Below, in pieces: positions 29,672 through 59,288 of a DNA stretch of 64,000 nucleotides; positions within the stretch are counted from its first letter, which is position 1, and each line of letters starts with the position of its first letter. Source of the stretch: Asparagopsis taxiformis (lineage: Eukaryota; Rhodophyta; Florideophyceae; Bonnemaisoniales; Bonnemaisoniaceae); the NCBI GenBank assembly GCA_030407315.1, contig JALQPE010000534.1:30422-94421 (forward strand), in the 5' to 3' direction. The position numbers and the translations under genes are program-made. The notes under the pieces are model-generated. The model ran no database searches. It was not told the DNA's origin and saw only the letters and a list, made by a program, of their open reading frames with translations.

Positions 29672-29748
29672 TATGAATTATTATGAATGAGTGAGTGGCA
29701 TTAAAGAGAGTCTGAACGACATACATTTATGTGAACGGTCTTACCAAC

Positions 29749-32021: not shown

Positions 32022-35000
32022 ATGCGAAAGTGCGAGAAATTGATACAGAGTTTTATAGCTTCTGTTTCCCCTTCATTTCTTACCCGGCACTTCATTATTT
32101 CAGAACTGGATGACGTGACGAGATTCTTCAAGAGGAGTGGGTCCAGACTCAGTTCCAAATCAGGTCCTCCAGAAGAGGAACCGGGTACTTCCACCATGAA
32201 GCACACTAGTACCGCCTTATTTGCAGACGTCATGGAAGGGTCTACGAACACACGTGTTGATCCGCGGGCATGCATCCCACTCACTGCTGTTCGACAAGTG
32301 GTGCGCTCTGGTGTGTTGCGATTGAAGTCGATATTTTCTGGAAACATGAAGTCAGCACAATGTCAAGAACAAGATGAAACAAACGGAATTGATGGATTGA
32401 TTTCGGGTTCCGACAATGCGATCGTAGTCGAGTTGACCGGGTCGTTCCAGCGCCACATTATTGACTTTTTCAAAACGATACGCGGTCCTCAGGGTGATTT
32501 TCTTTCTGACAGTGAGGCGAAAGAGAAGTCCGAATGCCGTTCCGTTTGGTACGTAGTTGTTGACGGTATGCACAGACTGACTGCAATCCAGGAGTTAATG
32601 GATGAGAACCCGGAGAGGTGGGACTCTTTTATGTGGCCTGTCACGATACTGAAAGGAGATCATTCTATCCAAGTTCTGAAACAACTAGGCAGACATCAGA
32701 ACCGAAAGCATGATGCAACATTATATGTCGAAACCACGTTCTATGATATCCTGAGCGGAATGAAAGAAGAAGCCCACCGGATGCAGAGCATGACCTCAAA
32801 GCCACCTACAGCCAAACAAGTTGCTGCCGCATATGATGGTTGCTCCCACCTCAAGGATAACACCGTCAGACAGACTGCTGCGACGGCATTGCGCCTTCCT
32901 GCGCGAGTGATCGAAGAAATTGGAACAATTATGAATTCGGAGCATCCAGACTTGGCAGAACCTCCTTCTAGCAACAGTATGGCAGTGAAAACTCGGAGAA
33001 AGGGTACTAATACCCCAATGACAATCGTTGACTGTCGCGTGTATCGCAAATTTGTGAATATAACATCTTTGAAATCTGCAACCAAGTTCAGGAATGCTTC
33101 GGGTACTGATGCTGAAGAAGTTCAAGTTCATACTCTTTACAGGCTTCGGGGAATCTCCAGATTGAATAAATTCAAACCAGTATCATACAAAGATACCCTC
33201 CAGCAATACGAATACACATGCGCAGCGATGAAAGAAGCGCGTAAGTTCGAGGTTCTTCATGAAGGACAGGTATGGCCAAAGGGCATGGAATCAATCAAGC
33301 TGAATCTACTTCGCTCATCAAAGTTCGATACTGATGTTATGGAGAACATGGGAAATGATTATAATATTCTGGATGCTCTTTTGAAGCAGTACCGGAAAGT
33401 TTGCCCTCAAATTGCTCCCATGAAGGAAAAGAAGTATCGGGAAAGCCATCGAAAAGACCCAGATCCCGATTCTTTCTGTCAGGAAATTGGCAAGACGGCA
33501 GCCGATAACGAAAATGCAGGTACAAGGGACGCGAAAGAAGAGAAACAAAAAGATGTCTCGAAGGAAGATAGTGTTCCTCAACTAGGCTCCGAAATATGTG
33601 ATGAGGATATAGTCTCGGTACCGAAGATGAGCCAGATAACGCAAGAATCTGTACAAGATGAAGTTGACGCTTCTGAAAAGGTTATCACCGGACCGAAAAC
33701 TTCTATTCCAGTCAACCGAATGATAACAGAGAACGATGTCTCTGCTTCACCTAGTATCAACTCAGACCGCCTCAACCTTCATTCTAAACGCGGTTCATCT
33801 GGTACGAATGAGCCAGAAAGAAAAGACTACGTTCTTGAAATGGGAATTACATGCTATCAGATGAAATGGCAGGACTTCGACAAGGAAATATGGACAGATG
33901 AGTACCCTCTTCAGGATTTAGTTCTTACCGACCCTCCGTATGGAACTCCGAATTCTAAATCCCTTCGTAATACCGCATATAACAATTTCATAAGTGATAA
34001 GGAAATCAATGCATTATGCCAGTTTGCAAGGAGAGCCTTGAAGCCAGGTGGCTGGTTTTTCTGTTTTGTATCATTCCGAAACTTTCCAGCATTCCTGCAT
34101 GAGCTGAGAAACGTCGGTTTCGACGGTCCGGAATACCCTTTCGTATTCATGAAAGACACGAACACTGTACAAGCACATCGCGGAGATATGTTCCCACAAA
34201 ACGCGTGCGAGTTTGCAGTTGTTGCCAGGGCTCCCGGACATCGTAAGGACGGTTTCAAGCCAGACCTTCGAAGCCAATATCACCTCGTCCCAACAGAAAC
34301 GAAACGGAAATTCGCTGCAATGTCCAGAATTCCCGTTTCGAAAGACAAACTTCTCACTCCAGGAACAAAATCTCCTGTTCTAGCAGAAGAGAAACATATT
34401 GGAATGTTATCCGAGATAATCAACACGTTTTGTCCTGAGAGGGGTTCAGTTATTGATGTTTACGGAGGAACACTTACTACTGCGATCGCAGCGATGAAGA
34501 CAGCCCGTTCATGTGTGGTTGTGGAAGCTAGTACCAAGATTTTCCGTCTCGCTCATGAAAGACTTCGTTCTATCGCCGATGCTTTGTATCATAATGATCT
34601 GAGATCACGTATCGGATCGAAGAAGAGGAGAACAGGGAATCATGCAGAGGATGGCGTTCTGCTAAGCCAACCGAAAATCTGTTCGCTACAGAAAATGGGA
34701 AAAGATGATAATACAAATGCCGGTAAATCCACTATCGAAGGAATAGAGAGAGTACTGAAAGGAGGAGATTCTGTTGAACTATACATTTTGGATCAGGTCG
34801 TCGGAAAAGCGTCTCTCCTTTGTGCAGGAACTAGTGATGAGAGGTTCCAAACTACAATACACAATGTACCTCTAGCGAACTTTCAAGGTGAGGATCAGAA
34901 ACTTGTATCTTGTTATATGTTCGAACCGAACGACTGTTGTTTGGATTGTCCTTACCCGTACAAATACGGTGGTACTGAACCTCCTCCTGGAACTTTGAAA

Positions 35001-35054
35001 GGGCTGAACGGGATATTCGCATGGGACTTGAACAAGATGAGGCCGTTGTCTTAG
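32022..35054 (+). CDS. ParB-like domain plus DNA amino-methyltransferase
   Basis: 1,010 residues from an ATG. A ParB/sulfiredoxin-like domain covers about residues 85-230, with its signature VVDGMHRLTAI (D181, H184, R185). A helical middle follows (TAKQVAAAYDGC...DNTVRQTAA), then a charged linker of about 150 residues. The methyltransferase has motif IV TDPPYG (D637) first and the SAM-binding motif VIDVYGGTLTTAIAAM (D812) last, which is the beta-class order of N6-adenine/N4-cytosine enzymes. A C-terminal 150 residues with DCCLDCPYPYKYGG is unassigned. ParB-methylase fusions are known in phages and bacterial mobile elements; a eukaryotic intronless version beside a transposase suggests carriage on an element. 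Probably modifies DNA at ParB-chosen sites (inference). Confidence 0.85.
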   Translation: MRKCEKLIQSFIASVSPSFLTRHFIISELDDVTRFFKRSGSRLSSKSGPPEEEPGTSTMKHTSTALFADVMEGSTNTRVDPRACIPLTAVRQVVRSGVLRLKSIFSGNMKSAQCQEQDETNGIDGLISGSDNAIVVELTGSFQRHIIDFFKTIRGPQGDFLSDSEAKEKSECRSVWYVVVDGMHRLTAIQELMDENPERWDSFMWPVTILKGDHSIQVLKQLGRHQNRKHDATLYVETTFYDILSGMKEEAHRMQSMTSKPPTAKQVAAAYDGCSHLKDNTVRQTAATALRLPARVIEEIGTIMNSEHPDLAEPPSSNSMAVKTRRKGTNTPMTIVDCRVYRKFVNITSLKSATKFRNASGTDAEEVQVHTLYRLRGISRLNKFKPVSYKDTLQQYEYTCAAMKEARKFEVLHEGQVWPKGMESIKLNLLRSSKFDTDVMENMGNDYNILDALLKQYRKVCPQIAPMKEKKYRESHRKDPDPDSFCQEIGKTAADNENAGTRDAKEEKQKDVSKEDSVPQLGSEICDEDIVSVPKMSQITQESVQDEVDASEKVITGPKTSIPVNRMITENDVSASPSINSDRLNLHSKRGSSGTNEPERKDYVLEMGITCYQMKWQDFDKEIWTDEYPLQDLVLTDPPYGTPNSKSLRNTAYNNFISDKEINALCQFARRALKPGGWFFCFVSFRNFPAFLHELRNVGFDGPEYPFVFMKDTNTVQAHRGDMFPQNACEFAVVARAPGHRKDGFKPDLRSQYHLVPTETKRKFAAMSRIPVSKDKLLTPGTKSPVLAEEKHIGMLSEIINTFCPERGSVIDVYGGTLTTAIAAMKTARSCVVVEASTKIFRLAHERLRSIADALYHNDLRSRIGSKKRRTGNHAEDGVLLSQPKICSLQKMGKDDNTNAGKSTIEGIERVLKGGDSVELYILDQVVGKASLLCAGTSDERFQTTIHNVPLANFQGEDQKLVSCYMFEPNDCCLDCPYPYKYGGTEPPPGTLKGLNGIFAWDLNKMRPLS

Positions 35055-35451
35055 TCTTATTACATATAGTTTCGCTCGGCAGATTTGAACAAAACCGCTG
35101 CAATAAACCTTTAGCTCTGTTTCGTACCATTTGTAAACCTTCAGAGAGGAAAGATTGTTGTCATTTTTCCCCGTAATCATGGGCGCATGAAGAGGACAAA
35201 TCAACCAATCAGCCGTACTCCATTCACAACAGAGATTGATTTGACATAGGTATTTGGCGCTGTATCCTGGGCCAACTATCACCGTCGAGGAGGCCACTCT
35301 GCATCCATATTAGATGAACGTCTCACCGGTGTCATTCCTACTCACCATGCATCTTGATCAACCGATATACTCGTCTTGCAGCCATCTCTTTTCCACGCTA
35401 CCTGCAAATCTAACTACCGTTCAGAGATAATTAGTTCTGCTCCCACTGCAG
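35055..35451. other. Intergenic spacer
   Basis: 397 bp between two same-strand genes, without a recognisable site. Presumably 3' end of the methyltransferase gene and promoter of the transposase. Confidence 0.4.
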
Positions 35452-37832
35452 ATGGCTCCGCGTTTTCATCTCGCCGAAGCTAGGAATGACGCACTGGAGA
35501 AAGCCGAATCATACATGAAATCTCTTTCTAGGGACTCCGAATCAGAACACGCTCCTTCTGTTGAAACCATATCTATGCCGCGTAGCCACGATGAAGTGAT
35601 GCGTGGAATAGTGGGTACTTCTTCCGACTCTTTCTGATCCTCGGCTTCGATGTACAAACCATTTTCACGACTACAACACAGGAAGAATTATGAAAGTGTG
35701 ACGAGGTCCAGTTCAGTTCGTCGAAAGAGCAGCATGCTAGAGAGGCGGGTGAAATTCAGTTTGTCACTGCCCAAAACAGATATAAGAAGAATACCACGCT
35801 GCAATAAGGGATGCTTCAGAAAAACAGACCATGTTTTCCTTCGGAATGAAGCAAAGCAGAACGAGTTTTGTTGTACAACAGGGACGATCGCCGCAGGTAT
35901 CTGCACGCTCTACTGGAACCAAACAGTAACCGGTTCTACTTCTCTGGGAAGCCTGTGTGTTGCGAATTCCTCGAGTTCAGCTTCAAGTTTTCACGACATA
36001 TGCAGACCTCGGTAAAGAAAGCTTGCCAGAATGGGATTCTTCCATTTATGGCTTCTCCGAAACGAATTTCTGGCTCTCCACATAGAGATGCAGTGATCTG
36101 CTTCCTTGAACGCTTGTCTGCCTCGACTGCTGATATGATGCCAGACAGTGGAGAGAAGCATCTGCCTCTTTTCGAGAAGAAGGCTATGTACGAGATGTTC
36201 TGCGACCAATTTACGTTATTATACTCGAACCGGAACCCACCAACTTTGAGCTACTTCTACAACACCTGGAACACGTTTTGTGCGAATATCAAGGTTCGGG
36301 GTGTCCAGAGGTTCACGAAATGTTCGGAATGTGAGTACATACGTGATAAACTGGAAGCCATCGGGACAGATATTCAACGCACTGCTCCGCTTCTGGAACG
36401 TCGCCAGCGTCATATCGAGATGGTGGCACGGGAACGCAGGGAGTATCAAAAGAAGTGTGAAGAAGCGTCACTATATCTCTCCAGGTTCACGTCTCTGATC
36501 GTAGACGGGGCTGATCAATCAGGATACGGTCTTCCCCATTTCACGGTATGTACAAAAGCGACTGTTGGTCATAGTTTGAAGGTGAGACTCATAGGTGTTC
36601 TCGAACATGGTGTCCGAAAGCATCTTTCGTTGTACACACTTACTGCTGAATTCGAAACTGGGGCAAATCATATCATCGAGGCAATTCACAGGACTCTTAC
36701 CAAAAAGGCTATGGGTTCGAGTCTTCAGGGAACACTGTACTTGCAGGTAGACAATTGCACGAGAGAGAACAAGAACACGTTTCTGTTTTGCTATCTAGAA
36801 TGTCTCGTTGCTTGGGGTGTGTTTGAAGAAGTACACGCTTCTTTCCTACCCATCGGCCACACCCATGCAGACATCGACCAGGCCTTTAGCTGTACCTCTC
36901 GCAGGCTACGTTCCCACAACGCCGTCACTATGGAAGATTTAGTTGAACAACTCAGAGTGTCCTATACTCCGGAACCCTCTGTCTCTCGTATGTTGCACGT
37001 GGCAAACTTCTCCGGTCTCTGCCGGAGTGAGAATTCGGTTGGAAAAGTGCATGCTTTCTCAAAATTCAGATACTTCAGGTTTCACCGATCTCAAGATACA
37101 GGAAAAAGTTATGACTTCTACAGAACTGGATGCGATGTTAAGATATTTTGTGAAGACAACTGGAAGCCTCTCCCAGTTCTCACTCCGGGGCTGAAGGGTT
37201 TCCTGGTTAAGCCTCCTGAACTGAAACGAACACCGAGTAATATCATACGTTCTCCTCCAGATCGACATGAGGTCCTGCTCCATTTTCGTTCGGAAGAGAG
37301 CAGGGTCAATAACAATTCTAAAATGGATCAGCTACATGAACTTCTACGACAGGTTTATGAGGAAAGGGAAGATTCTTTTCATTGGAACCTCACCGAATGT
37401 TTCGAGATGAATGGCATGTATCGAAAAGGGAATCGGAACGTCGTCCCGATAGAGGAGGAACTCATGTCGACTGCAGATTGCATACCACTATCAGACTTGC
37501 CCTACTCCGTGAATCGCTTCGTGGCTGTAAATGGAGAAGACTGTACTACTGAGATGCCGTTCTGGCTAGGACAAATTATGAGTTGTAAGAAAAACAACGA
37601 AGGGGTTATTTGTCAGCTGTGTGTTCGGTGGTACGAGGTCTACGATGGAAGAGACGCATGGTCAGGTAAGTATAGGCCTGCCATGCTTCGCAAGGGGAGA
37701 ACAACAGTGGCTTGGAAGGGACATATTTCGGTTGACACCGTCATTGCAGAGTTCCCTTCACTAACAAACAAGATGATAAGAGCTGGGGTAGAGAAAGAGA
37801 TCAGGTCAGGCCTGGCGTCTATTCCGAAGTAA
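35452..37832 (+). CDS. DUF7869-type transposase (RNase H fold), damaged N-terminus
   Basis: The N-terminal frame starts at the ATG at 35,452, hits a TGA at 35,635-35,637, continues in the same frame to about 35,865, then shifts at a GTTTTG run into the long frame ending at 37,832. The core has a zinc motif KCSEC, IVDGADQSGYG (first Asp), LQVDNCTRENKN (second Asp) and PIGHTHADIDQAFS (third acidic position). This is the pattern of DUF7869 proteins, which are found in mobile elements of many eukaryotes. The last 100 residues (PFWLGQI...VRWYEV...WKGH) resemble a BAH/chromo-type reader. The deleted relative at 29.7-30.8 kb confirms the N- and C-terminal domains. The TGA and the shift suggest a pseudogene, unless there is an intron or recoding. 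Confidence 0.75.
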
Positions 37833-37860
37833 AAACGCCTCGTCTTCGACCACACGAGTA

Positions 37861-37925
37861 GTTCAATCAACTTTGTTATCCTATTCAATCAATATGAAAA
37901 AACATCTCTCATGTTCAATCAACTT
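37861..37925. repeat. TTCAATCAA direct repeats
   Basis: Three copies of TTCAATCAA within 60 bp just after the transposase stop and before the GC-rich insertion. Candidate transposase-binding subterminal repeats; weak evidence. Confidence 0.35.
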
Positions 37926-38800
37926 CAGAAAGTTGGATTCTGGTTTGGAAAGTACGTTCTGTTCATAGCGAAATCAGTGTTGGACGCGTCCCCAACGAAG
38001 ATGGCAACGGCCTCATTACGAAACTTCCCGCACGAAGCGGAACGCAGCTACACGTTAGCCGACGAACAAGACCAACGGGTCTCAGCGCATGAAGCGCGCG
38101 AGTAAAGCGTGCGAACGACGAGCCAACGAGGCCGCGACAACGGACGGCGAACCGTATCGCCATCGTGAGGCACGACGCTGAACACGGTAGCCACGTACGG
38201 CAACACGGAACGACACAACGGTGTCCTGCCACGCGGGCATAACGAATGACGCGCGAAAGTGAAAAGCCCGCCGGCTAGTCGAAACGCACGAGCAAACCCG
38301 AAAGGGGTTGACCACGTACGGTCACGAAGACTAAGACGCGCACGTCCGCGTCGCAACCGTAAAGCTAACGAAGCTTCAACCTCGTACGCATTCGAAGGCG
38401 CACGCGCCACCGGCCACGTCGGCCAGGATACGAGCGAGGTACGCGGACGTCGCTAACGATAACGACGTACACTACGGGTCGAACGCACGAAACGAAATAC
38501 GAATACGCGACGGCGTACAAGCTGGTAGCCAACGTAAACGGCACAGCTGAAGGCAACGAGCCGACGAAAGGCTGGCTCACGTAGCAGCCTCAAACGCCCG
38601 CGGGCATGCGAAACGACTTCGTCAATCGCGTCCCCGTCGGGTTCGCAAGTCGAATAAACGAAATTACGCAACGGCGTAGAGGGCGAGCATTACGTATGCC
38701 CAGGTGCACGTCGCACCACATAACGGATGAGCTAACGAAACGCTCCTCGGACGCCGCGGCGAACGACGCCACCACGCGAAGCGGACTAGCGCAACGATTG

Positions 38801-40924: not shown

Positions 40925-41097
40925 CTCCCCCGGACTAACATCACAGCGCGTCCTCGCGCGTCATCTCTTTCCTCACGTGCTCTTCCGTTTCCTTCGTTCT
41001 ACTCTTTTCGTCTGCAGCCTCTTCTCTTTTGTTCTATCTCCTTCTTCCTTCTCTCTTGCCACCCGCGTTCGCCGTCATCCTTACCGATTCGCACGCT

Positions 41098-43441: not shown

Positions 43442-43503
43442 TTATTTGTTACTATTGCTAGCATTCTCGTTGCAGGAAAAGCGTTTGGAGTGACACTCTG
43501 CGA

Positions 43504-47577: not shown

Positions 47578-47648
47578 ATGGCCTCTGAGAAGAGAAATCC
47601 AGCGAGCACCTCTGGCGTCCCCTTCATGGTGAGCGGCGCAATGGGCTA

Positions 47649-50600
47649 TTGCACATCGACCCATTCAAGATCAAAAGATATGTCGAGATTCGAGAAATCG
47701 ACTACAGGCACGTCGATGTTATTGCCGAGAGCATTCAGGTTTACGGCTACAATGACAACAACCCAATTACCGGTCGGATCATTGCCGGTGAGGTAGAGGT
47801 GCTGGATGGTGCGCATCGTTCGAAAGCTGTAATCAAGCTCATAGAGAACGGTGAGCTTCCGCGTGATTTCACTGTTCCTATGATTGAAGAAGAAGTCGAC
47901 ATATCTCCGATTACAAGTGCTGCTTTCCTTCTAGATAGTGTGAAAGCATCAAACGCGAACGATATGGCATCCAGGCAGAAGAGGATGACTTTCATTGAGT
48001 ACCTGAATCTTACTTTGGATCTTAGAGATGGGTACTGGGAGCGAAACGCAGGTGAAAAACAAGGAAGCTCAAGCATGGTTACAATTCGCGACGTGAATAT
48101 GCCATCCATTAGGCGATGGCTCGCCGTGGGATCTCAGCGCGAAGATTTGGCAGAAACTGTGCTGAGGCAGCCACAGTACGAGAGTTGCTTGTCAATTCTT
48201 CGTGTGCTTCGCCCCTACAGTCGCATAGAAGAACCCAATCCCAAAATGGTTCGCTGTCTGTGGCAGTTGTTCTGTATTGTATGGGGAAGGCCGGTGGAAG
48301 TTCAGAACAATTTTGCGATGAAGGAGTTTCCCACATCTCTCGAGAAAAGAGCATCAGTCGGCGAGCAGTTGTTTGGGATGTCTACAAGTGGTGAAATTGC
48401 TTCTCCATTGTGTCGCGAAGTCCTCACCTGTGAGTATTTTCGTTCTGGAAGAAGTGCACAGGGTAGAACATTAACAGAAGAAGACAAAGTATTTGGAAGG
48501 CTGATGTTTATGATTTCATTTGTGCACATTGCCCTCACTAGACGCAGAAATGCACCCATTCGCCGGGGTAGGAAGCGTCGTAGAACTGGGAGGGATACAG
48601 AGACTTCTACATTCGCCCCTTTCCAGCGCACAAGAGCAAACGGAGAGTCTGTGGGTGTCGTTTTGGAAAGGGTCATGTCTGCCTGGGATACAACAGCGAT
48701 GATTCTGGGCTTCGAAAGCGCCTACATGATGTGTCGCCCATACATGGTTTTCGACTCTGAGAAATTCCAATTCATCTGTCTTGCTAATCGTACTGACGGG
48801 TGGGCACATCCTGACCACTACTCAGATCTTCTGCTTCCGTCCCCGGTAGTGAAACTCCGCGAGAATGCAGGTTATCCAGGCACTTTGGATATCTCTGTTG
48901 ATGCAAGGTTGAGGTCTTTGACAGAAGCCGTACTAGTGTCTGTGTATGACTGTATGATAGGCATTGATGTATTCGGATCAAGTACGAACCAGATGGAAGG
49001 GCTGCGCACTAAATTTTTCCATCAGCCTGACCGGTTCGGATTGAACGCCTTCATCGAAGCAAGAATAGAACAATCCATCGCATTGGATGGTCACGAAAGA
49101 CTCAAGGTATGGAAGAACTGGAACCGTGAAATGCGTGTGAAGCCAGTTGATGTCTGCGACTTGAAAATTCTCTACGAGACTGAACAGCGCAACGCAGCAT
49201 CCAGATCTCTTTCTCGAGAAAGAGATCGTCTTGAGTCGAATGAATCAATGCAGCACAGCACTCGCCGTTTAGGTACAGGTGGAAGGAAACCTACCAATGA
49301 CTCTGGATCCCAGTATACATCCAGCATGGATGGGAGGGCTTCGTCCGCAATGGACACGGTTATGCAAGATGTTGCGGAGGATACACCGTCAGCGGAGGCA
49401 GTGGGTGAGGAAGAGGGGGTACCGGATCATATTGTGCAATTGAAAAAGGTCATGAAGAGATTTTGCGTGGCTTACAACTGTACAGCCTCGAGGTTAGTGC
49501 ACCAGGTTAACACTGATTCCATTGGCATGCTTTCAGGGAATACTATTGATGGACAAGCACAACTTGTGCTCACCGATCCACCCTTCAACACGCGGAGGGA
49601 GAAAGGCAAGACCAATTCAGACTATGATGACATCAATAGCGCACAAATGTTTCGTACTGGAAAGGACATTTCTCGAATGCTGCGCCCTGGAGGACATGCC
49701 CTGATATTTTCCAGTATCAAACAGTTGGTTGGGTGGGGAGAAGCTCTTCAAAATGCAGAAAGCGGGGAACAATCCATGCGTACAGACGATGTTCCTCTCA
49801 TTCTAAGCCGTCGTCCCTACGTATTCATCCAAAACCCAATGAACAAATCGTGTTCATTACACAACATTCACGAGTTTGTTGTGCACAGTTTCAAACGTGG
49901 GATGGGAGCTGCCGCGTTTGAAATGGTTGATTATTCTTTGCATAACCGTGACCTTTCACGACATCCAGGGTACGTGAACGCAATCGACAACTGCCCAAAG
50001 CTCGGACCTGGTGAGTCATTGAACTTCGAAGACAAAAGGCTACGTGCGGAGCAGAAGCCTCTGTCCATACTTCGAGAGCTTATTTCAAGGTTTTCAAAGC
50101 CAGGAGACATTGTGGTAGATCTATTCTCCGGAACGTATTCTACTGCAATAGCTTGCATGACAATGAGAGATGGTCTGTATCGCAAGTTTATTGGATGTGA
50201 AAAAGACGCCACATGCCATGGATCAGCTCAGCCGTTGTTGCTGGATTGCTTTGTTAGGCAAGGTCGAGATGGAGTTTTTGGGGAGGCAACCAAAAATGAC
50301 ATATCGAGTATTCTCGCTAACAAAGAATGGAATTACTCGATAAGGAGCAATGTAGGAAGTGAAAGACTTCGACATCGAAGTGATGCGCCTGATGGATTCC
50401 CGTCGGTATCTTCACTACCACTGCATATGTTGCGATTTGTCTCCTCTGTTGCGCGGGATCAAAGCATGCTCCGAAGACTTGCCGAAGTCCCAATGAATGA
50501 ATGGGGCGTAGAAGATTTAGGCAAGGTTTTCTCCGTTGACCCTGAGATGATGCTTGCAGTAGATGCCTCCTTTCACAACGTTATTGTTGCTGCATCGACA

Positions 50601-51086
50601 GTTCGAGAGGGAGGATTGGGGGTTTTTGCCGCAGAAGATTTAGAGAGGGGCTCTGTTGTTGGATGGTATAATGGGACAATTTTATACGGGAAGATTGGGG
50701 AGAATGAACCGCAACGCAGTCGCTTGTACGGACCGGACGGGTTCGGTTGTACTGGTGAAAGATTCCAAAACTTCAACATGGAGATGGAGACCAGTGTCAT
50801 CGGAGAAGAAGCACCGGTCGACAAGATATATCTTGTACCAGCGGAATACAATGTCTGCAGCTACCTCAACGACAGTAGGACCATTGACGGAATGGAGAGA
50901 GTTGCAAATGTGCAACGCAGAAAAAATGCAGAGTTCCGAGTTCACAAAGACGTCAATCCTACTTGCGACTTCAAGTATGCAGTAGCAAAACCTGATCTCA
51001 TCCTAGCGCAGGTTGTAGTAGATGTTCGAGCTGGGGAAGAGATATTCGTTGACTATGGATCGCGCTACTGGACTGCAGAGAAGTAG
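47649..51086 (+). CDS. ParB-like domain, DNA methyltransferase and SET fusion
   Basis: About 1,145 residues. The listed start is a TTG because no ATG lies in this frame before the ParB box. An overlapping frame from the ATG at 47,578 probably supplies the N-terminus through a shift near 47,645. ParB-like domain: HIDPFKIKRY... and VLDGAHRSKAV (H56, R57). Beta-class methyltransferase: TDPPFN (D643), then QKPLSILRELISRFSKPGD and VVDLFSGTYSTAIA. SET domain, about residues 975-1140: GGLGVFAAEDLERGSVVGWYNG, SYLNDSR, and the catalytic end EEIFVDYGSRYW. The fusion would let one protein place DNA methylation and methylate a protein, presumably histone. It converges on the dioxygenase gene at 51,777. 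Confidence 0.85.
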   Translation: MHIDPFKIKRYVEIREIDYRHVDVIAESIQVYGYNDNNPITGRIIAGEVEVLDGAHRSKAVIKLIENGELPRDFTVPMIEEEVDISPITSAAFLLDSVKASNANDMASRQKRMTFIEYLNLTLDLRDGYWERNAGEKQGSSSMVTIRDVNMPSIRRWLAVGSQREDLAETVLRQPQYESCLSILRVLRPYSRIEEPNPKMVRCLWQLFCIVWGRPVEVQNNFAMKEFPTSLEKRASVGEQLFGMSTSGEIASPLCREVLTCEYFRSGRSAQGRTLTEEDKVFGRLMFMISFVHIALTRRRNAPIRRGRKRRRTGRDTETSTFAPFQRTRANGESVGVVLERVMSAWDTTAMILGFESAYMMCRPYMVFDSEKFQFICLANRTDGWAHPDHYSDLLLPSPVVKLRENAGYPGTLDISVDARLRSLTEAVLVSVYDCMIGIDVFGSSTNQMEGLRTKFFHQPDRFGLNAFIEARIEQSIALDGHERLKVWKNWNREMRVKPVDVCDLKILYETEQRNAASRSLSRERDRLESNESMQHSTRRLGTGGRKPTNDSGSQYTSSMDGRASSAMDTVMQDVAEDTPSAEAVGEEEGVPDHIVQLKKVMKRFCVAYNCTASRLVHQVNTDSIGMLSGNTIDGQAQLVLTDPPFNTRREKGKTNSDYDDINSAQMFRTGKDISRMLRPGGHALIFSSIKQLVGWGEALQNAESGEQSMRTDDVPLILSRRPYVFIQNPMNKSCSLHNIHEFVVHSFKRGMGAAAFEMVDYSLHNRDLSRHPGYVNAIDNCPKLGPGESLNFEDKRLRAEQKPLSILRELISRFSKPGDIVVDLFSGTYSTAIACMTMRDGLYRKFIGCEKDATCHGSAQPLLLDCFVRQGRDGVFGEATKNDISSILANKEWNYSIRSNVGSERLRHRSDAPDGFPSVSSLPLHMLRFVSSVARDQSMLRRLAEVPMNEWGVEDLGKVFSVDPEMMLAVDASFHNVIVAASTVREGGLGVFAAEDLERGSVVGWYNGTILYGKIGENEPQRSRLYGPDGFGCTGERFQNFNMEMETSVIGEEAPVDKIYLVPAEYNVCSYLNDSRTIDGMERVANVQRRKNAEFRVHKDVNPTCDFKYAVAKPDLILAQVVVDVRAGEEIFVDYGSRYWTAEK

Positions 51087-51776
51087 GACAGTTTAGGCGT
51101 CCAATTACAGATATCAAGAGTACCATCAGCAATAAAAAGTCTTGCATCTGAACTCGTACAACGTTGTAGTACTACAATCTACCTGAGCGATAATAACAGA
51201 CTTTCATTTGCTGAGCGGTGCCAGTCAGCCCACGCCCAATGATAGTGCTGCACCTGGGCTTTGCCATGCCAAAATAATACCGGGTATTATTTTGGGTGTG
51301 GCCAGCCCAAGTGCAGCTCTGCCATTGGCTGTCATGAACGCAGCGGCAGCCAATGGAATTGCTGCACCTGGGCTTTGCCATGCCAAAATAATACCCGGTA
51401 TTATTTTGGGTGTGGCCAGCCCAAGTGCAGCACTATCATTGGCTGCCAGGTTTGCATCTCAACTATAGTTAGTATACTAAGAAGAAAAATTCAAGACCTT
51501 GGTTACTCGAGTGATGTGGAATTGTGGCAGTCTTGCAAAACTGTGCCATGCATGTAGGAAAGGAAAAGAGATCAGTCTGTACGATGTAGGGTGTAGAAGC
51601 TATGCGGGGTGAGAGGTAGAGGAACTCTAATAGTGCAGTAGACTGACCGTGCTAATATTTTCAAAGTCATGAATAGGAGTAGATTTAGTTGTGGTAAAGG
51701 AAGTATACTACCGAAGCTAGCTTAGGATTGGCAGATGCTGCCTGTAGAGGGAGAGGCAAAGCAGTATTCTTGCAGA
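51087..51776. other. Convergent spacer with palindromes
   Basis: 690 bp between two gene 3' ends. The palindrome pair at 51,269-51,409 sits in a unit of about 114 bp repeated twice. Nothing else was seen. Confidence 0.6.
51269..51409. repeat. AAAATAATACC palindrome pair 2
   Basis: Two perfect palindromes with 13-bp arms (CC plus AAAATAATACC) at 51,269-51,295 (central G) and 51,383-51,409 (central C). The mirror symmetry extends imperfectly to TGCACCTGGGC on the left and GCCCAAGTGCA on the right, about 33 bp per arm. Confidence 0.9.
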
Positions 51777-54620
51777 TTATCGCGCACTAGGTGCATCCCA
51801 GTAGTTGACTGTTTCGATAGCATCCGCCAATTCTTCTTCGTCACTTAAAAGGTAGAGATGAGAACGAACCGGAAGACCATATGTTAGGCGATTTTCCGCT
51901 GAACTACTGAATCCTTTGCCTCCATGGTAGAAGTCACCACGACCGATGAAGAGAGAATACGGTGGCACGTAGATGTCCATAACAGGCGTCTTGTACTTCT
52001 CAGCGTCTGCACGCGTCAAACAGACGTGGCTGAAATACGCTCCACGAAGCCAGAACCCATCAGCCGCGCTTGCCATCAGAAAGTACGATCTTCCAGGTGG
52101 GAAATCGGAATCATTGATGACCACCGGTAGGTCTGTGTGCAAGTCTTGATCTGGAGCACCATCAGAGGTCAGCAAAAGACGTAAACCGGTTTTAGGAAAG
52201 GCCACAGGCTCATGGATTCCTAGGCCCAAGTACATTAGCTCGGCACAGATTGCTTTGCCGACCTCGAGAATCATCTTGTTCTTGAATTGATGTTCATCCA
52301 TCTGCTCGAGATCGTCGCAAATCTTCTTCCTTGAGATAGAGAACCTTCCCAAACGAGAGGCCTGTTGCTCTGCTGTTACCTCACCCTTGTTTCGAATCTG
52401 ATGCCAGGGATCATTGGAACTGTCTTCAGCAGAAGAATGAACAGGTTTGAACTTCTGGGCGTAGAACGTGAACAGTTCATGTGCTGCGTTGCCCACAGTC
52501 GAAGAACGGAAGATACCACTGAGTACATGGGCACCCAAGAGATTGAGAGTTGACCTAGCTGTTGCAAAGAACTTCTCTGCACAGCAAGCTGGACCACTGC
52601 ACGCTATACAATTCATATCGGCAGCAGCTGCACTCAAAATCTCCTGTCGGATTGTTTCGTACAGCTTGCTGTCGATATAGTACTTGACCCTAGAGTCTGA
52701 CGGTATGGTGTTCGGGAGAATATCCATAATCCGTTCATCGACTACCCTGTCGGGGAGGGGATTTTCCTGCTCATCGCTGAACAATGGAATCTCCTCGGTT
52801 GAACGTTTAACCGTACGGTTAACTTCCAGTCTTCTGCGCTTCGGAAGGGGCTCTTCGGACTCTTCTTCTACCTCCGACTCTGCCTGACTGTCGCCACCAA
52901 CCCGTAGACTCTCCGTTCTCTGCCGTTTCGACCTGCGAAGTGTCTCGACTGGCTCATTCACCGCAAGCGGTGGTGCATTGAGAGGGAGACGGAGGAGAAC
53001 AGATCCCAATTGCTTCTCAGAACCTGCCACAGTGGCATCAGGGGTTCCTTGAGCCTGCTCAACTGCAGGAACGGAAGTGGCAGGAGGAGGAGGGGTAGTA
53101 GGAGCAGGAGTAGAAGGAGTAGAAGGAGTAGAAGGAGTAGAAGGGGTAGAAGGGGTAGAAGGAGTAGAAGGGGTAGAATGAGCACGAGGAGCAGGAGGGG
53201 TAGAAGGAGCAGGAGGGGTAGAAGGGGCAGGAGGAGTAGGACCAGAACGGGTAGAAGGGGTAGAAGGCTCATCTGATTGGGGCGTAGATGGCTTCGGCGC
53301 ATCTTCAGATGGCTGTTCATTGTGAACAATGACCCTTTGGTCTTCTTCCATTTCCACAACGCCCGTGGAAAAGCGAAGCTGCTCATACATTTCGTCGGAG
53401 ACGAGAGCATGCTTCGTACCGCTGTTGTCGTCGGTATTGAAGTGCAGGAGGGTCTCCGCGATACTGTTCGCAATAACAGTCTCCTTTCCTGACCCAGTGT
53501 TCTTGAGCTCGGAGTAGAAATGCTCGAGCGGAGGCTCCATCATTTTGTGAGCAGCAACCGGCTCGGACATCTTGAACACTTCAATTAAAACACGAACGAA
53601 AGGATTACCAAATCCTCTTGTCGTCCTACTCAACTGACGCAGATCTCGCATGCGTGTCCAGAGAGCTGTTATGAGCAAGATGAACCTTTGCTGATACTCC
53701 GAGCCGCGACGGAAGTCTGCCATGAAAACGAGATCCATGTTGCAGCCATACATGTCTACGGACTGCTTGAAGACATCGTCGTTGATGTCACGGCCTTCTT
53801 TAACGGCCCTTTCCTGTTCCGCAGCGAGAATTTCCTTGGTGAACATGCTCGGTACGGAACTCCAGAACTCAAGCGCTTTGTTGTTCACAGTCCGGAAGCC
53901 TTTCGCAGCAGTCACGTGCTTGTTGATGGCTTGGTAGCCCAGTTTCGATATCGACAACTGGCTGTCCATGATGACCTGAATGCACTTCCGATTCGGTTCA
54001 CCCAGCATGTCCTTGGTCGTGAGCAGTTGGACCACAGAACACACTCGGTCTGCCAAAGAAACAAGGGCAACATCATGTGTGAGTGTGTTTGCTTGAATGG
54101 ACAGCCCGAGTACTTCAAAAGGTGTGAAGTACTCATCGGAAACTTCTTCTGTCCCTGGGCGCCTGATCAAAGCCACATCGATGTTCCTGAATGAAGCAGC
54201 ATACGGATGTTGCCCTTCCGGGTCTTCACGAATGCACTTCTGGAGAGCCGCAACGCGATGGCCACCATCGATGTAGAACGTTTGAAGGGTGGGGGTTGTG
54301 CTGCCTTCACTGGGAAGGAGCATTTTGCAGGCAAGGATTCGGGAGATTGAGGAGGTGAATCCTTCCCTCAGGAACTTCTCCTTCAGCTCAAGCACTCTCC
54401 CTTCCCTAATATGACGAGAGAATAGGGGAGGTCTGTGCAAATCCAAGGGAGACAGCCTGTGGTCAGCTTTGGGACAGTCTGACAACTGAACCTCGGCGGT
54501 GACAGAGTTATCGTGACCAGGGCTGCGAGAAGGGGCGCGAGAGCGAGCGGAGGCCCGACCGCGAGTCGAAGCGCGAGCAGGGGCGGGGGCAGAGGGTTTG
54601 GAGCGAGTGCGAGGAGCCAT
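51777..54620 (-). CDS. ParB-like domain plus 2OG-Fe(II) dioxygenase-like, copy 1
   Basis: 947 residues from the ATG at 54,620. A basic Arg/Ser/Ala/Pro N-terminus is followed by the ParB-like domain, about residues 50-200, with YIDGGHRVAAL (H121, R122). A helical middle (YGCNMDLVFMADFR) and a Ser-Thr-Pro repeat linker come next. The C-terminal domain carries a dioxygenase-type metal triad: LHTD (H828, D830), FYHGG (H899) and the co-substrate Arg in LPVRSHLY (R919). SRVKYYIDSKLYETIRQE just before it is shared with the paralogue at 55,764. A Cys cluster (CIACSGPACC) could bind metal. Predicted to oxidise a modified base or a protein at ParB-selected sites; the substrate is unknown. Confidence 0.8.
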   Translation of the reverse strand: MAPRTRSKPSAPAPARASTRGRASARSRAPSRSPGHDNSVTAEVQLSDCPKADHRLSPLDLHRPPLFSRHIREGRVLELKEKFLREGFTSSISRILACKMLLPSEGSTTPTLQTFYIDGGHRVAALQKCIREDPEGQHPYAASFRNIDVALIRRPGTEEVSDEYFTPFEVLGLSIQANTLTHDVALVSLADRVCSVVQLLTTKDMLGEPNRKCIQVIMDSQLSISKLGYQAINKHVTAAKGFRTVNNKALEFWSSVPSMFTKEILAAEQERAVKEGRDINDDVFKQSVDMYGCNMDLVFMADFRRGSEYQQRFILLITALWTRMRDLRQLSRTTRGFGNPFVRVLIEVFKMSEPVAAHKMMEPPLEHFYSELKNTGSGKETVIANSIAETLLHFNTDDNSGTKHALVSDEMYEQLRFSTGVVEMEEDQRVIVHNEQPSEDAPKPSTPQSDEPSTPSTRSGPTPPAPSTPPAPSTPPAPRAHSTPSTPSTPSTPSTPSTPSTPSTPAPTTPPPPATSVPAVEQAQGTPDATVAGSEKQLGSVLLRLPLNAPPLAVNEPVETLRRSKRQRTESLRVGGDSQAESEVEEESEEPLPKRRRLEVNRTVKRSTEEIPLFSDEQENPLPDRVVDERIMDILPNTIPSDSRVKYYIDSKLYETIRQEILSAAAADMNCIACSGPACCAEKFFATARSTLNLLGAHVLSGIFRSSTVGNAAHELFTFYAQKFKPVHSSAEDSSNDPWHQIRNKGEVTAEQQASRLGRFSISRKKICDDLEQMDEHQFKNKMILEVGKAICAELMYLGLGIHEPVAFPKTGLRLLLTSDGAPDQDLHTDLPVVINDSDFPPGRSYFLMASAADGFWLRGAYFSHVCLTRADAEKYKTPVMDIYVPPYSLFIGRGDFYHGGKGFSSSAENRLTYGLPVRSHLYLLSDEEELADAIETVNYWDAPSAR
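53088..53270 (-). repeat. Coding repeat for a Ser-Thr-Pro linker
   Basis: A GTAGAAGGA/GTAGAAGGG 9-bp unit repeated in tandem, encoding seven consecutive S-T-P triplets and related PPA-S-T-P triplets between the ParB-like and dioxygenase parts. Length is likely variable between copies. Confidence 0.85.
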
Positions 54621-55763
54621 TGAAGGATGAGGGAAAGCAGGAATGGAGAGAAGCTTGATTGAGTGTACGACCCCGATAACGACGATACAGAGACGATTAA
54701 GATAGATTTATTTCGCTACTGCAGTCTGATAAAGGATCAAACGTGAACAATCCGTTTCAACTCTGATTTCAATTTTTTGTTTATTTCTAGACCACTTGAC
54801 TCAGATCAAGAGTAATACTCGAAATTCAGTTAATTTCTGCGGCCAAATACAATCGCTATACGACGAGTTCATACTCAAAGTGGCTAAACAGGTACGAGTT
54901 GGTCATGGTGATTACCCCAAAACCACTCAAGTAATAACTACATAATGCTGAAGTCACATACTTCCCAGCATTTTGCACCAACTCGTGGAGCTGATGCGTA
55001 CATACCAAATGCGTCTGTATTCAACATGAACCACGAATAAGTGGGCTTCGGCCAATGAGTGCACTGCACCTGGCTTGAGAAACTAGAAATAATACCCGGT
55101 ATTATTTTGGCCTCCCAAACGCCAGGTGCACCAACGCCATTGGCCAAGGGTATCCGGCTACCACCGGCCAATGGGGTTGGTGCACTTGGTCTATACCGAC
55201 CCAAAATAACACCCGGTATTATTTTGGCCGCCCAAAAGCCAGGTGCACCAACGCCATTGGCCGGTGGTAGTTTGGACAACCTCGGCCAATGACGCTGGTG
55301 CACTTGGTCTATACCGACCCAAAATAATACCCGGTATTATTTTGGCCTCCCAAAAGCCAGGTGCACCAACGCCATTGGCTGAGGTTATCCGGAGTACCCC
55401 CAGGCAATGGGGTTGGTGCACTTGGTCTACACCCACCCAACTTTATACCCGGCCAGACTCCTGTTCTCAGGAACTGAAAATTTTACCGGGGATAGTGAAC
55501 GATGTAATATAATACCAGGTTTTACTATCTGCTATCGTTTCTTGCATCTACTGAAGAGGTTTAGAATTTGCAGCTCCTGTAGGTAGAGCTTTCTGTGGAG
55601 AATAGCTTTCTGCATGTGGTGTTTGTTACATTTGTGGAATTGATCTGACTATATAAAGAATCCATGCAGTATCTCTTTTATCATGTTCTATTGGAATTGT
55701 GTTTATTACTCTACGGATTCATACCCAACTAAGGCTTCAACACGGCTGGACAGATGCCCTTCA
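54621..55763. other. Spacer between the two dioxygenase genes
   Basis: 1.1 kb upstream of one gene and downstream of the other. It contains three palindromes spaced about 117 bp apart and two degenerate copies (near 55,445 and 55,510). No gene was seen. Confidence 0.6.
55087..55345. repeat. AAAATAATACC palindrome triplet
   Basis: Palindromes at 55,087-55,107, 55,201-55,227 (one arm mismatch, AACACC) and 55,319-55,345, with centres about 117 bp apart. The symmetric flanks include TGCACYTGG and GCCAATGG/CCATTGGC, giving units of about 95 bp with near-mirror symmetry. Confidence 0.9.
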
Positions 55764-58700
55764 TCACTTCAATTTCGAATTGCCCTCCCAATGTCCAACG
55801 ACATATTCTCCTTCTTCACTTTGATGCTGCTCAGTTTTGAGGAATATGTGAGATCGGATCGGGAACTTGTATTGAAGACCCTTATTGCTCTCAAATCCTT
55901 CCTCGTGGTGATAAACATCCCCTCGGCAGACAAGAACAGAATATGGTGGTACTTCACACCTCTTCATTGGAACTCTGTATAACTCTCTGTTGGGATGGGA
56001 TAAACAGACATGACTGTAGGGTGCAAGCACGAGGCCGAATCCATCTGCGCCGCTTGACATCATGAAGTAGGATGGCGGAGAAGGGGGACTGTTAACTTCA
56101 TCGATTCCCACTTCATAGTCTGTATGTCCAGCACGAGGTTTAGTCCGCTCTCCAGTCAGCACTAAAGTAGTTCCAGTGCTGGGGAAGGCCATCGGGTCCT
56201 TCCCACTAGTCCTCAATTCCAAACCTTCCGCACAAATACCTAGACCGAGCTCAACAATCATCTTCTTCCGATAGAGATTATTATTGTTATCCTCGAGGTC
56301 ATCACATAAGCTCTTCCGCTTTGTTATAAAGATTCCTCTGCCCTTCTCACCTTCTTCATCAGAGTTTTTCCCATCCATCATAGCCATGCACCACGGTGTC
56401 CAGTCCGGATCTCTGCGGGTGTCACCGGATTCAGAGTTCTTCTTGGCATCCTCGAGACGTTCCTCAAACAACGCAGAAAAATGAAGGAGCAGTTCGTGGA
56501 TCGCATCTGCAGTAGTAGAAGACTTGAATATTCCGTCCAGAATTGTAAACCCAACCAAGTCTATTTCATTTCGTTTCTCTCGGAAATAAGCCCTCGAGAG
56601 AAACTCAGCGGAAACATTTTGTGCCGAATAGGCACTCGCTGCTGCTTCAGCGACCTCGGCTCGAAGCGTATCGACCAGTTTCCCATTCACATAGTATTTC
56701 ATTCGACTGTCGGGATGAATGATAACAGGCAGTTTCGCTTCTATACCTTCCTCCACATCTTTGTCAGGGACATCATTTTGTTGCCTGTCCGAATACTGAC
56801 CTCCTTGAACCGCGTGGACTGCAGCGTCTTTGCCGGATTGCAAATTTGCGTCTTCACGCATCTTTTGCTTCTTCTTCTGCCGCGGCCTGCTGGTATCCTC
56901 TCCCACCAGGTCAATAACCTCTTGAGGGGTGACATCCACCAATTTCCGTTTGGATCGTAGAATCATTGGCGGCGTCTCCGTATTCCTCGGCTTTGCCTTT
57001 AAGGGCACGAAACCACTGCTGTGCTTGGCTTTCATCAACTTCCTAGGCGTAGAACTGGTAACAGGTGTTTCCGTGTCCTCCAGCTCAGGTAAAACAGGTA
57101 GGCCGACATCCGCTGTAGATAACATAGCGTCTCCAGTGCCATCACCCTGATTTCGTACACCTTTCATCGGGTCCTCCGTTGTCCTTCCAGAAGAATGTTC
57201 GGGACATTCTTCGCGGACATCTTTCGTTCCAGACCCATCGCTCTTCCTAGATTCAGGACCTCCTTCACCATCTCGACCAGTTCTTGGATGACCAACTGAC
57301 ATATTCGCCGGCGACTTTCCACCCTGCTCTGGTCTGAGCGTGGCACTTCCGGCTGCCACTGGGCTAGGTGATTGTTGCAGGTCATTTTCATCACCGTGGT
57401 CATTTCTTCCTCGATTTGCACCAGTTGGTTCAAGCTCTTGAGTTCCTACGTTCTTCTGCAACACATCCCCAACTTCACAATCTCCAGGTTTCGAAGAATT
57501 GTTCTCGGTTGGCGCAGTAGGCACTGCGCGGTCCGTTGTAACCTGCTTTGCGCTTTCGGAATCTGCCGCTTTCCCTGTCGCCTCTTCACCAACCTGTGTT
57601 GCAGCACCGACCTCAGCGTTAACACGATCCGATATTTCCAGACTGCCCTGTGTCTGCTGTTGGGTAAGTACATTTGGACTCTGTACCACGTCCGAGCGAT
57701 CAATGGCAGCATTTGAAGTATCACCATACGATGCGGATTGTTGTCGTGGTTGAGGTGCAGTATTCCCTTCCAAGGATTTTCGCCTAGTCCGCCTTTCCTG
57801 CACACCTATTTCAGGCGCGACGGAATGGTCGAGAGAGTCATCCGATAGAATTGGGCCGTTGAAAACCACATAACGGATTTCTTTCATCATAGACCGCGTC
57901 AATGCTGCACGTATACCTCTCCCAGTTGGTGCGTCGGAAGGATAGAAATCTTTGAGGACAGTCAAAATGCGATATCGTATGGTTTTTCGTGTTCGTCCAC
58001 CTGGCTCCGGTACTTCATGTAACTTCCTGAAACATGGATGAGGTGAGGAATGCCAGGAGTTTTCTTTCCGTACAGCTTTCTCAAGTATGTCATATATTTC
58101 ACACATGCTGTAGCACCACTTTTGCGCGCATGTCTTTAGACTTATACCACCATCTCCTTTCCTACGTTTCCACATCGTCCACATTGCAGTGAGCTCTAGA
58201 ATGACAAGTTTGGTGTCCACCGAAGCTTTTCGAAACGCAGAAGCGAATAGGACGTCCACAGTGCATCCCTGCATATTCTTCGAGTCTGGCGGACTAGTTT
58301 CAGTTGCAAATCGACTTGGGATAGCTGACCAATGTTCGAACGCCGGGTTATTTACGTCTCCGAAGCCCTGCGCAATCGAAACGTACTTCATCATGATTCC
58401 TTCCTGACAACCTGGAATGACCTTGTTCTCGACTACAACTTTTGTGCACACATTTACCTTCGCCTTCATCAAGCCCTTCATCATCATGAACTTCATGACC
58501 GTACAGACGTGGTCAGCAATAGAAACTTCTATCACGTCATGAGTCTTTTCGTTCAGCTTCTGCGATATTCGCATCACTTCAAGAGGATGAAACATTTCAC
58601 GAGTTCCAGGTGGTCGGATGAAGTCAACGCTAATGCTCCTCAGTCTCCATCGATCAGCAACTGTCGGTTTGTTTTCCACAATCGACTGCAAAGCGCTGAT

Positions 58701-59288
58701 ACGATGACCTCCATCAATGCACTGCAGTTTCTTCCGTCCGTCTGACCCCATTGTTTCACAGATGGTCATTCGGGTGCCAGTTTCCAGAAACCCCTCGGTA
58801 GATATTTTGCTGACCAGATCGCGCACTCTGGCCTCCTGCACAAGACGAGAAGTTGATTCCGGTTTGGCAACATCTAGCGGATTGATCATTTTAGGTTCAG
58901 TCCTGCATTCGACAATGTTGATGTCAATCCCCATCACAGACTCTTCTGATGCTTCCATGCCAGCAGGACTCCCCTCGCCTTCACGGACGTTAGACCTCTC
59001 CCTGTTTTTCGATTTCACCGTCCCAGGAGTAGATGGAAAGCGTAGAGTGTTTTTCCCAGATGGTGATATATCGCCAAGGGTTTTTGCTGCCTCTATCATG
59101 GCAGCGTCTGCTCCCTGAATGGGTGTCTGGCTATCTGCCGTCTCCCTTCCCGCTGCAGACGGAGCCCCTCCATCAGCAGAACCTCCGGAGGGTGTTTTAT
59201 CACCGCCTACCGTCGTTGCAAGTCTCTCTGCAACGCTTTCGACGGTATCCTTTGGTTCCGCAGCGCGCTCAGTGTCGCTTCCGGCCAT
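55764..59288 (-). CDS. ParB-like domain plus 2OG-Fe(II) dioxygenase-like, copy 2
   Basis: 1,174 residues from the ATG at 59,288. A disordered N-terminus of about 120 residues precedes the ParB-like domain with CIDGGHRISAL (R196). A helical middle and a long acidic/polar linker follow (about residues 480-850), containing ILRSKRKLV and RPRQKKKQK basic patches. The C-terminal dioxygenase-like domain has AGHTD (H1055, D1057), VYHHEEGF (H1127) and FPIRSHIF (R1145). KYYVNGKLVDTLRAE and GFTILDGIFKSSTTADAIHELL align with copy 1. The two paralogues keep all metal and co-substrate residues, although the rest has diverged, which suggests both are or were active enzymes. Confidence 0.8.
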   Translation of the reverse strand: MAGSDTERAAEPKDTVESVAERLATTVGGDKTPSGGSADGGAPSAAGRETADSQTPIQGADAAMIEAAKTLGDISPSGKNTLRFPSTPGTVKSKNRERSNVREGEGSPAGMEASEESVMGIDINIVECRTEPKMINPLDVAKPESTSRLVQEARVRDLVSKISTEGFLETGTRMTICETMGSDGRKKLQCIDGGHRISALQSIVENKPTVADRWRLRSISVDFIRPPGTREMFHPLEVMRISQKLNEKTHDVIEVSIADHVCTVMKFMMMKGLMKAKVNVCTKVVVENKVIPGCQEGIMMKYVSIAQGFGDVNNPAFEHWSAIPSRFATETSPPDSKNMQGCTVDVLFASAFRKASVDTKLVILELTAMWTMWKRRKGDGGISLKTCAQKWCYSMCEIYDILEKAVRKENSWHSSPHPCFRKLHEVPEPGGRTRKTIRYRILTVLKDFYPSDAPTGRGIRAALTRSMMKEIRYVVFNGPILSDDSLDHSVAPEIGVQERRTRRKSLEGNTAPQPRQQSASYGDTSNAAIDRSDVVQSPNVLTQQQTQGSLEISDRVNAEVGAATQVGEEATGKAADSESAKQVTTDRAVPTAPTENNSSKPGDCEVGDVLQKNVGTQELEPTGANRGRNDHGDENDLQQSPSPVAAGSATLRPEQGGKSPANMSVGHPRTGRDGEGGPESRKSDGSGTKDVREECPEHSSGRTTEDPMKGVRNQGDGTGDAMLSTADVGLPVLPELEDTETPVTSSTPRKLMKAKHSSGFVPLKAKPRNTETPPMILRSKRKLVDVTPQEVIDLVGEDTSRPRQKKKQKMREDANLQSGKDAAVHAVQGGQYSDRQQNDVPDKDVEEGIEAKLPVIIHPDSRMKYYVNGKLVDTLRAEVAEAAASAYSAQNVSAEFLSRAYFREKRNEIDLVGFTILDGIFKSSTTADAIHELLLHFSALFEERLEDAKKNSESGDTRRDPDWTPWCMAMMDGKNSDEEGEKGRGIFITKRKSLCDDLEDNNNNLYRKKMIVELGLGICAEGLELRTSGKDPMAFPSTGTTLVLTGERTKPRAGHTDYEVGIDEVNSPPSPPSYFMMSSGADGFGLVLAPYSHVCLSHPNRELYRVPMKRCEVPPYSVLVCRGDVYHHEEGFESNKGLQYKFPIRSHIFLKTEQHQSEEGEYVVGHWEGNSKLK

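Follow-up and report, generated by a model that had tools for sequence, protein, structure and literature searches.

The stretch analyzed here, 64,000 nt of contig JALQPE010000534.1 of the red alga Asparagopsis taxiformis (Rhodophyta) and referred to below as the window, contains four long open reading frames (ORFs), whose translations all show a D-G-x-H-R box (x is M, A, G, and G, respectively). An initial annotation had described them as ParB-type boxes fused to different modifying domains and had assigned all four to one mobile-element region. The ORFs are present where it had placed them:

32022–35054, + strand: methyltransferase (MTase) gene of element C; DGxHR-box domain and beta-class amino-DNA-MTase (DPPY...DVYGGT; Pfam/PHROG)
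47649–51086, + strand: MTase-SET gene of element A; ParB-like domain, beta-class amino-DNA-MTase (DPPF...DLFSGT), and SET (Pfam/PHROG)
51777–54620, − strand: first oxygenase-like gene of element A; ParB-like domain, low-complexity linker, and 2-oxoglutarate (2OG)-Fe(II)-oxygenase-like domain (HTD...H...R)
55764–59288, − strand: second ParB-like and 2OG-like gene of element A, a paralogue of the 51777 gene

Such fusions of ParB-type boxes to modifying domains do occur on mobile elements of this eukaryote, in many copies. However, they do not form one region: the genes are split over two different DNA transposons, with the 32022 gene in element C and the other three in element A. One element carrying all four genes was ruled out by the separate block boundaries and copy contexts of elements A and C, and single-copy host genes were ruled out by the many near-identical copies of the 51777, MTase-SET, and 32022 genes.

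Pfam matches bear out the annotated MTase domain of the 32022 gene and the MTase and SET domains of the 47649 gene. N6_N4_Mtase (PF01555) matches with E values of 1.3e-11 and 1.1e-13, respectively, and in both proteins catalytic motif IV (DPPY/DPPF) precedes the S-adenosylmethionine motif (DVYGGT/DLFSGT), which places them in the beta class; their MTase parts are 24% identical (BLASTP). SET (PF00856) was matched at E 2.1e-5 (25.3 bits versus a cutoff of 22.4) and at E 5e-7 with the piece alone. A phage-type match for the amino-MTase domains is phrog_67 (E 2e-23), and matching Protein Data Bank (PDB) chains are DpnA, CcrM, and MboIIA (E 7e-4 to 7e-3). This resemblance to bacterial and phage enzymes would suit a role in self-protection, in which the MTases label the DNA of the element and thereby allow a nuclease or the transposase to tell it from unlabeled DNA, as in bacterial modification systems, while the oxygenases act elsewhere, e.g., on proteins. 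We consider such a role highly unlikely: a Pfam scan of the element A ORFs found no nuclease domain (two of the six genes are without an assigned family), and the ParB and MTase part of the MTase-SET protein had no phage match in tblastn at 1e-5.

The two annotated 2OG-Fe(II) dioxygenase-like C termini were upheld by motifs, with the HxD...H...R set kept, but not by profiles. Neither Pfam nor PHROG gave a match below an E value of 0.01, Pfam returned no TET/JBP profile in these genes, and a PDB profile search with the pair gave no match at E up to 10. Between the 51777 and 55764 proteins, identity is 37% in the C-terminal domain and 32% in the ParB-like region. When the C-terminal residues 604 to 947 of the former served as query, a single relative was returned, P0003, a protein of 1012 amino acids (aa) from Joint Genome Institute (JGI) metagenome contigs. 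Its plan is the same: a DGWHR N terminus, a long low-complexity middle, and an H-T-D / S-H / P-P-Y-S-L-F-I-G-R-G-D-x-x-H / R end. Among these three proteins, which are 28 to 38% identical, the motifs H-T-D, S-H, P-P-Y-S, R-G-D, H, and R are conserved, and the HxD...H...R ligands H828, D830, H899, and R919 are invariant (three of three). In 2OG oxygenases, an H-T-D...H...R pattern provides the ligands for iron and 2-oxoglutarate; judged by these motifs, both C termini read as 2OG-Fe(II) oxygenases. Another protein search gave one record only, identical to the query, and scans of viral contigs and prokaryote genomes with two to six short patterns each found no relative. An earlier homologue search, in which scoring was confined to the 8000 candidates with the most words in common, was dominated by low-complexity words, and its one match (E 4.5e-4) was set aside. 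A 9-bp minisatellite at 53055–53294 encodes the Ser-Thr-Pro-rich linker of the 51777 gene. Copies seem to differ in the length of this linker, since open frames span 946 to 1027 aa among the 48 scored copies.

The ParB-type assignment of the N termini held in part. The DGxHR box is common to all four, and the N terminus of the MTase-SET protein matches the ParB-like phrog_1033 at E 3.1e-6 (four further ParB-like PHROGs are weak, E 0.02 to 0.1), but Pfam ParB_N matches none of the four. The N terminus of the 32022 protein gave sub-threshold matches to DndB and GmrSD_N (E 0.03 to 0.04). The oxygenase-like N termini align with it in hhalign (probability 87.7, pairwise E 3.4e-6, 29 columns), and that of P0003 matches it in BLASTP (E 4e-5, residues 23 to 212); one methyltransferase and the oxygenase-like proteins therefore appear to have a similar head. 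The MTase-SET head is likely the same domain, although this is less well supported. Elsewhere in the genome, ParB_N (PF02195) matches a bacterial-type ParB gene (E 8.8e-8) on the 14.7-kb contig C1526, possibly a bacterial contaminant or plasmid, whose protein has no hhalign match to the window N termini.

Element A has the structure of a giant CACTA-type transposon. In addition to the three genes above, the window contains:

42841–59959, + strand: left part of element A, cut at right by element B; block common to contigs C2142 and C285
42841–42859, + strand: left terminus, CACTACTGAGTTTGAGATC
42860–43230: subterminal short palindromic repeats of the GTAAATTTACTGCCTGAGGCAGTAAA / ACAGTAAATTTACTGT type, read directly; similar ones lie in the element B end at 59985–60340
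43504–44850, + strand: gene 1, no assigned function, 5′ part missing in the window copy; relative on element B
45458–46846, − strand: gene 2, 462 aa, no assigned function; relative on element B

The main stretches of the block are 96.8 to 99.9% identical between the window and C2142 or C285, and the left flanks are unrelated. On both contigs the element extends further to the right. The complete copy on C2142 is 24,001 bp long and closed by an inverted copy of the left end; the right terminus, outside the window, is an inverted match of CACTACTGAGTTTGAGATC at 16 of 19 positions. The element thus has the 5′-CAC...GTG-3′ inverted ends of the EnSpm/CACTA type (CMCT). It also has target-site duplications of 2 bp, within the 2 to 5 bp of that type, in all 11 copies with both ends read (TT, AT, TT, AA, AT, AA, TT, AA, TG, TA, and TA; ~7e-8 by chance). 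In this set, C2142 is the sole 24-kb form and the other ten are forms of 11.9 to 15.1 kb, which were the preferred spans; about two dozen contigs, by eye, had both ends in one orientation among the matches listed, flanks were taken for 10, and the right flank on C605 is just three bases long. Repeats on either side of element A, considered as a possible long target duplication, turned out to be left ends of family B. The subterminal repeats of elements A and B resemble the transposase-binding repeats of CACTA elements. In the right part of the C2142 copy, a 1206-aa frame encodes one CHSC (residue 620) and an H(4)H (residue 651), i.e., the C(2)C and H(3-4)H of CMCT transposases; no profile assigns the catalytic D, D, and E. 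No Pfam family matched this protein at E up to 10, so the Plavaka transposase profile was not matched; Pfam includes a Plavaka model. We term it a candidate transposase because no Pfam model matches. The CxxC and H(4)H signature is common to CMCT clade transposases, according to PMC12730594.

Element A is abundant in the genome. Its left 19-mer has 564 genomic sites at up to three mismatches (control, 53), a count that includes right ends, as these differ by three, and the right 19-mer has 319 at up to one mismatch (control, 0). Forty-eight copies of the 51777 gene were scored, out of 11,730 first-look candidates; their matched stretches are 95 to 100% identical, and 2 of the 48 have one stop. 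All 40 scored copies of the MTase-SET gene (3,783 candidates) are 99 to 100% identical and free of stops, and 25 have the full score. Across 30 loci, the ratio of nonsynonymous (N) to synonymous (S) polymorphism (pN/pS) in the 51777 protein was 0.23 for the N-terminal part and 0.35 for the C-terminal part, values that must be set against the choice of loci as best protein matches, which biases N downward. Variants present in two or more copies had S:N of 26:8 and 7:3. The pattern suggests purifying selection on the 51777 gene.

Shorter derivatives of element A also exist. Eight listed end pairs span 15,098 to 15,101 bp by coordinates. The one copy read, on C212, has ~2.6 kb at the left and ~2.2 kb at the right in common with the full element (94 to 95% identity). 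It retains gene 1 as an open frame of 507 aa, remnants of genes 2 and 3, and 10 exact copies of the palindrome core described below; neither the oxygenase-like genes nor the transposase gene had a match in it. At derivative coordinates 10794–11534, a frame includes a piece that by eye resembles RING and SNF2 helicase, as would result from capture of part of a host gene.

The initial annotation had overlooked that the stretches between the genes of element A contain arrays of a 19-bp palindrome, AATAATACCSGGTATTATT:

45172–45281: array with two cores
51233–51448: array with two cores in the window and four in C2142
55046–55450: array with three cores and a decayed fourth unit
59537–59736: array with two cores, two mismatches each

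The genome has 2333 exact sites, compared to 0 for the reversed control. At up to three mismatches, the window has nine sites, all within 45172–59700, and 100 shuffles gave 0. Allowing four mismatches, 240 sites were collected from the loci and the window (overlapping L002, L003, and L005 dropped), 196 of them exact. They form classes that differ in their flanks but hardly, if at all, in the core; conservation in the largest class is 98.0% for the core and 84.9% for the flanks. Since many loci are near-identical copies, the classes rather than the counts bear the argument. A unit consists of nested dyads, CCAATG and TGCACCTGG, followed by the core, with variable spacers. Apart from element A, a satellite-like run on C19 (27340–30179) has 25 exact palindromes at ~117-bp spacing.

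The arrays may be the best clue to how the proteins find their own element. They could also be unrelated to the ParB-like proteins and serve as transposase or chromatin-boundary sites, as sources of hairpin RNA, or as terminators near gene 3′ ends. Four of the five single units tested fold strongly as RNA (z −5.8 to −9.5), and 5 of the 24 predicted consensus pairs show change on both sides in at least 1 of 11 units; however, such folding is absent from the fifth unit (z +0.5), although 17 of its 19 core bases are kept, and the covariation term across the 11 units is +0.3, which gives no support. Because spacers vary while sequence blocks stay, protein sites are favored over RNA. Hairpin RNA as the chief role of the arrays was therefore dropped on the covariation term and is kept within this alternative. 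The nested CCAATG and TGCACCTGG half-sites are like ordinary eukaryotic promoter boxes, and all four arrays adjoin at least one gene 3′ end. On balance, a role unconnected with the ParB-like proteins appears doubtful.

The annotated comparison with TET/JBP enzymes implies a different substrate. The oxygenases would strip 5-methylcytosine (5mC) deposited by the host, as the TET/JBP enzymes on fungal transposons may do, and the arrays would guide them as motif clusters guide VANC, proteins of VANDAL elements that counteract silencing in a sequence-specific manner (PMC5735166 and PMC10398659). TET/JBP genes have been reported on 11 lineages of fungal DNA transposons, including Plavaka and EnSpm (PMC12730594), and the arrays of element A lie in its noncoding DNA. 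The observed/expected ratio in element A is 0.83 for CpG (mildly low) and 1.12 for TpG, and CpG sites vary more between copies than other C/G sites. However, CpG sites show no excess of transitions (0.060 per site) over transversions (0.064), and the ratio at other sites is similar; these copies thus bear no clear mark of 5mC decay. The neighboring gypsy-like DNA, with CpG ratios of 1.58 to 1.62, is not depleted. Together with the missing TET/JBP profile match, this leaves 5mC oxidation without clear support, and we regard it as quite unlikely. An N-methyl substrate therefore fits better than 5mC.

The remaining elements of the window are as follows:

20831–37981, + strand: element C, a DNA transposon distinct from A, with 72-column inverted ends that are 85% identical
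35868–37832, + strand: DUF7869 protein, candidate transposase of element C (PF25273, E 1.6e-49)
41746–42840, + strand: second element-B-like left end, 94% identical to 59960–60383 over 425 bp, cut by element A
59960–64000, + strand: element B (related family), left end CACTACGGTGTTGAG..., starting exactly at the cut edge of element A, with degraded relatives of element A genes 1 and 2

The ends of element C differ from those of element A. Its right edge, 37981, was set by the stop of homology with one other copy, on C2648, and the same edge recurs inverted at 20831; a candidate 4-bp duplication, GGAC, at 20827–20830 and 37982–37985 was seen in the window copy alone. For the 32022 gene, 45 copies were scored out of 3,339 candidates; they are 96 to 100% identical, and 10 have a stop. 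The DUF7869 gene lies on the same strand no more than 1.6 kb downstream in 33 of the 45 (34 with the second piece of the C10 copy), as counted from 57 of 69 rows (the 12 left out lie on contigs without a listed copy of the 32022 gene), two split copies being represented by their first piece alone. Element C also contains a Ty1/copia-like insertion at 23.3–26.7 kb, read by eye, and a minus-strand frame (29749–30453) whose end resembles, by eye, the C-terminal tail of the DUF7869 protein. The left end of family B has 793 genomic sites (control, 0). In the window, the tail of element B runs past the contig end, and a C212 stretch 8 to 18 kb downstream of a B left end holds relatives of the transposase gene and of the oxygenase-like genes; the B copies in question are themselves broken. 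Translations indicate Ty1/copia-like and Ty3/gypsy-like coding regions at 1889–5910 and 12000–19104. The genome is that of a red alga, with 13 phycobilisome-domain matches (11 on contig C469) and with phycoerythrin, phycocyanin, and allophycocyanin-like pairs named by eye; in the PDB, the top match of the phycoerythrin beta chain bears the name fluorescent protein, and the next two are R-phycoerythrin class I chains.

The enzymes could be passengers, captured by chance, carried unused, and intact as the copies are young. The scored copies are indeed almost identical, the 15.1-kb derivative has its RING/SNF2-like piece, and nearly a quarter of the element C MTase genes (the 10 of 45) carry a stop. 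Set against this are the low pN/pS between copies; the recurrence of the same kind of gene on two elements here, on metagenome contigs, and on other algal transposons (PMC12477816); and the relatives of element A gene 1, gene 2, the oxygenase-like genes, and the transposase gene in or downstream of family B ends, broken as those copies are. Chance cargo is thus very unlikely.

The model we consider best is a self-targeted write/erase system acting on N-methylated DNA, to which we assign a probability of about 0.42. Targeting would be the role common to the ParB-like N termini: they would recruit the attached effector domains to DNA of the element itself, and in element A they would dock at the palindrome arrays. 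There the methyltransferase would write N6-methyladenine (m6A) or N4-methylcytosine (m4C), the SET part would add a histone mark, and the oxygenases would remove or oxidize N-methyl marks. The outcome would be a reversible on/off state across all copies that keeps the element genes expressed, and derivatives that lack the enzymes and keep the arrays would be served in trans. The model is supported because the element has defined ends with 2-bp duplications, near-identical open copies, a purifying pattern in the 51777 gene, and high palindrome counts; because the C212 derivative keeps 10 cores without the enzymes and the core is common to arrays with differing flanks; and because the N-terminal domain is common to an MTase protein and oxygenase-like proteins and clear CpG decay is absent. 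A published suggestion is that the transposon carrying a ParB-MTase may itself be bound and modified by it (PMC12477816).

Several observations count against the model. The whole-genome PF02195 search reached one unrelated contig and none of the four genes, and the MTase-SET N terminus aligns weakly with the oxygenase-like ones (hhalign probability 11.1). ParB/Srx-type domains commonly bind nucleotides and act as regulators, leaving DNA contact to other regions. Element C has a ParB-like MTase yet no palindrome at up to three mismatches, all nine window sites being in element A; none was found in the C212 stretch with the oxygenase-like relative or in the 4.0 kb of B in the window. Moreover, no array of element A lies in its sole divergent 5′-5′ region, each being next to a gene 3′ end. 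The stronger version of the model, a complete reversible N-methyl-DNA circuit on a eukaryotic transposon, with a ParB-MTase-SET writer, two ParB-oxygenase erasers, cis palindrome docking arrays, and a head that converges all of them on every copy, enzyme-less derivatives included, is in our estimate unlikely.

VANC, unlike the element A proteins, is not known to be an enzyme fusion of the ParB-like kind. The VANDAL/VANC system of Arabidopsis (PMC5735166) is a candidate for something that works alike, with element proteins acting on noncoding motif arrays and derivatives served in trans. The closest relatives in content are algal giant DNA transposons with ParB-like and DNA-MTase accessory proteins, such as Sola1-1_Ec32 (PMC12477816); these proteins share the ParB-like domain, an m4C/m6A-type MTase, a length of ~1100 aa, and a giant DNA transposon as carrier, whereas here one MTase also has SET, and there are two oxygenase-like partners and cis palindrome arrays. 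A red algal ParB-MTase case is cited there to Petroll et al. 2025. Giant EnSpm/CACTA and Plavaka elements (CMCT; PMC12730594) resemble element A in the CAC...GTG ends, 2-bp duplications, and CxxC followed by H(4)H, and differ in that its candidate transposase is without a Pfam match and its cargo includes three modifying-enzyme genes. With the fungal TET/JBP-carrying transposons of the same source, it has in common a 2OG-type oxygenase gene as cargo, here assigned from motifs, but not a TET/JBP profile match or a clear 5mC footprint, and its oxygenases are ParB-like fusions. The oomycete HarbingerS and MuDR elements cited in that source likewise carry a SET gene; here, SET forms one protein with a ParB-like domain and a DNA MTase.

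The literature searched contained no report of ParB-oxygenase fusions or of the palindrome arrays, though the red algal (Bostrychia) paper of Petroll et al. 2025 may hold them. Thus, ParB-MTase as a transposon accessory is already described, and the ParB-oxygenase pair, the SET fusion, and the arrays look new. Even if the mechanism is wrong, a ParB-like head on MTase and on oxygenase-like partners, on two transposons and in a metagenome protein, widens the algal ParB-methyltransferase story. If the model is true, selfish elements of red algae would have a private epigenetic code on amino-methylated DNA instead of 5mC, with writer, eraser, and address in 24 kb and a defined predicted target, the 2333 exact palindrome sites.

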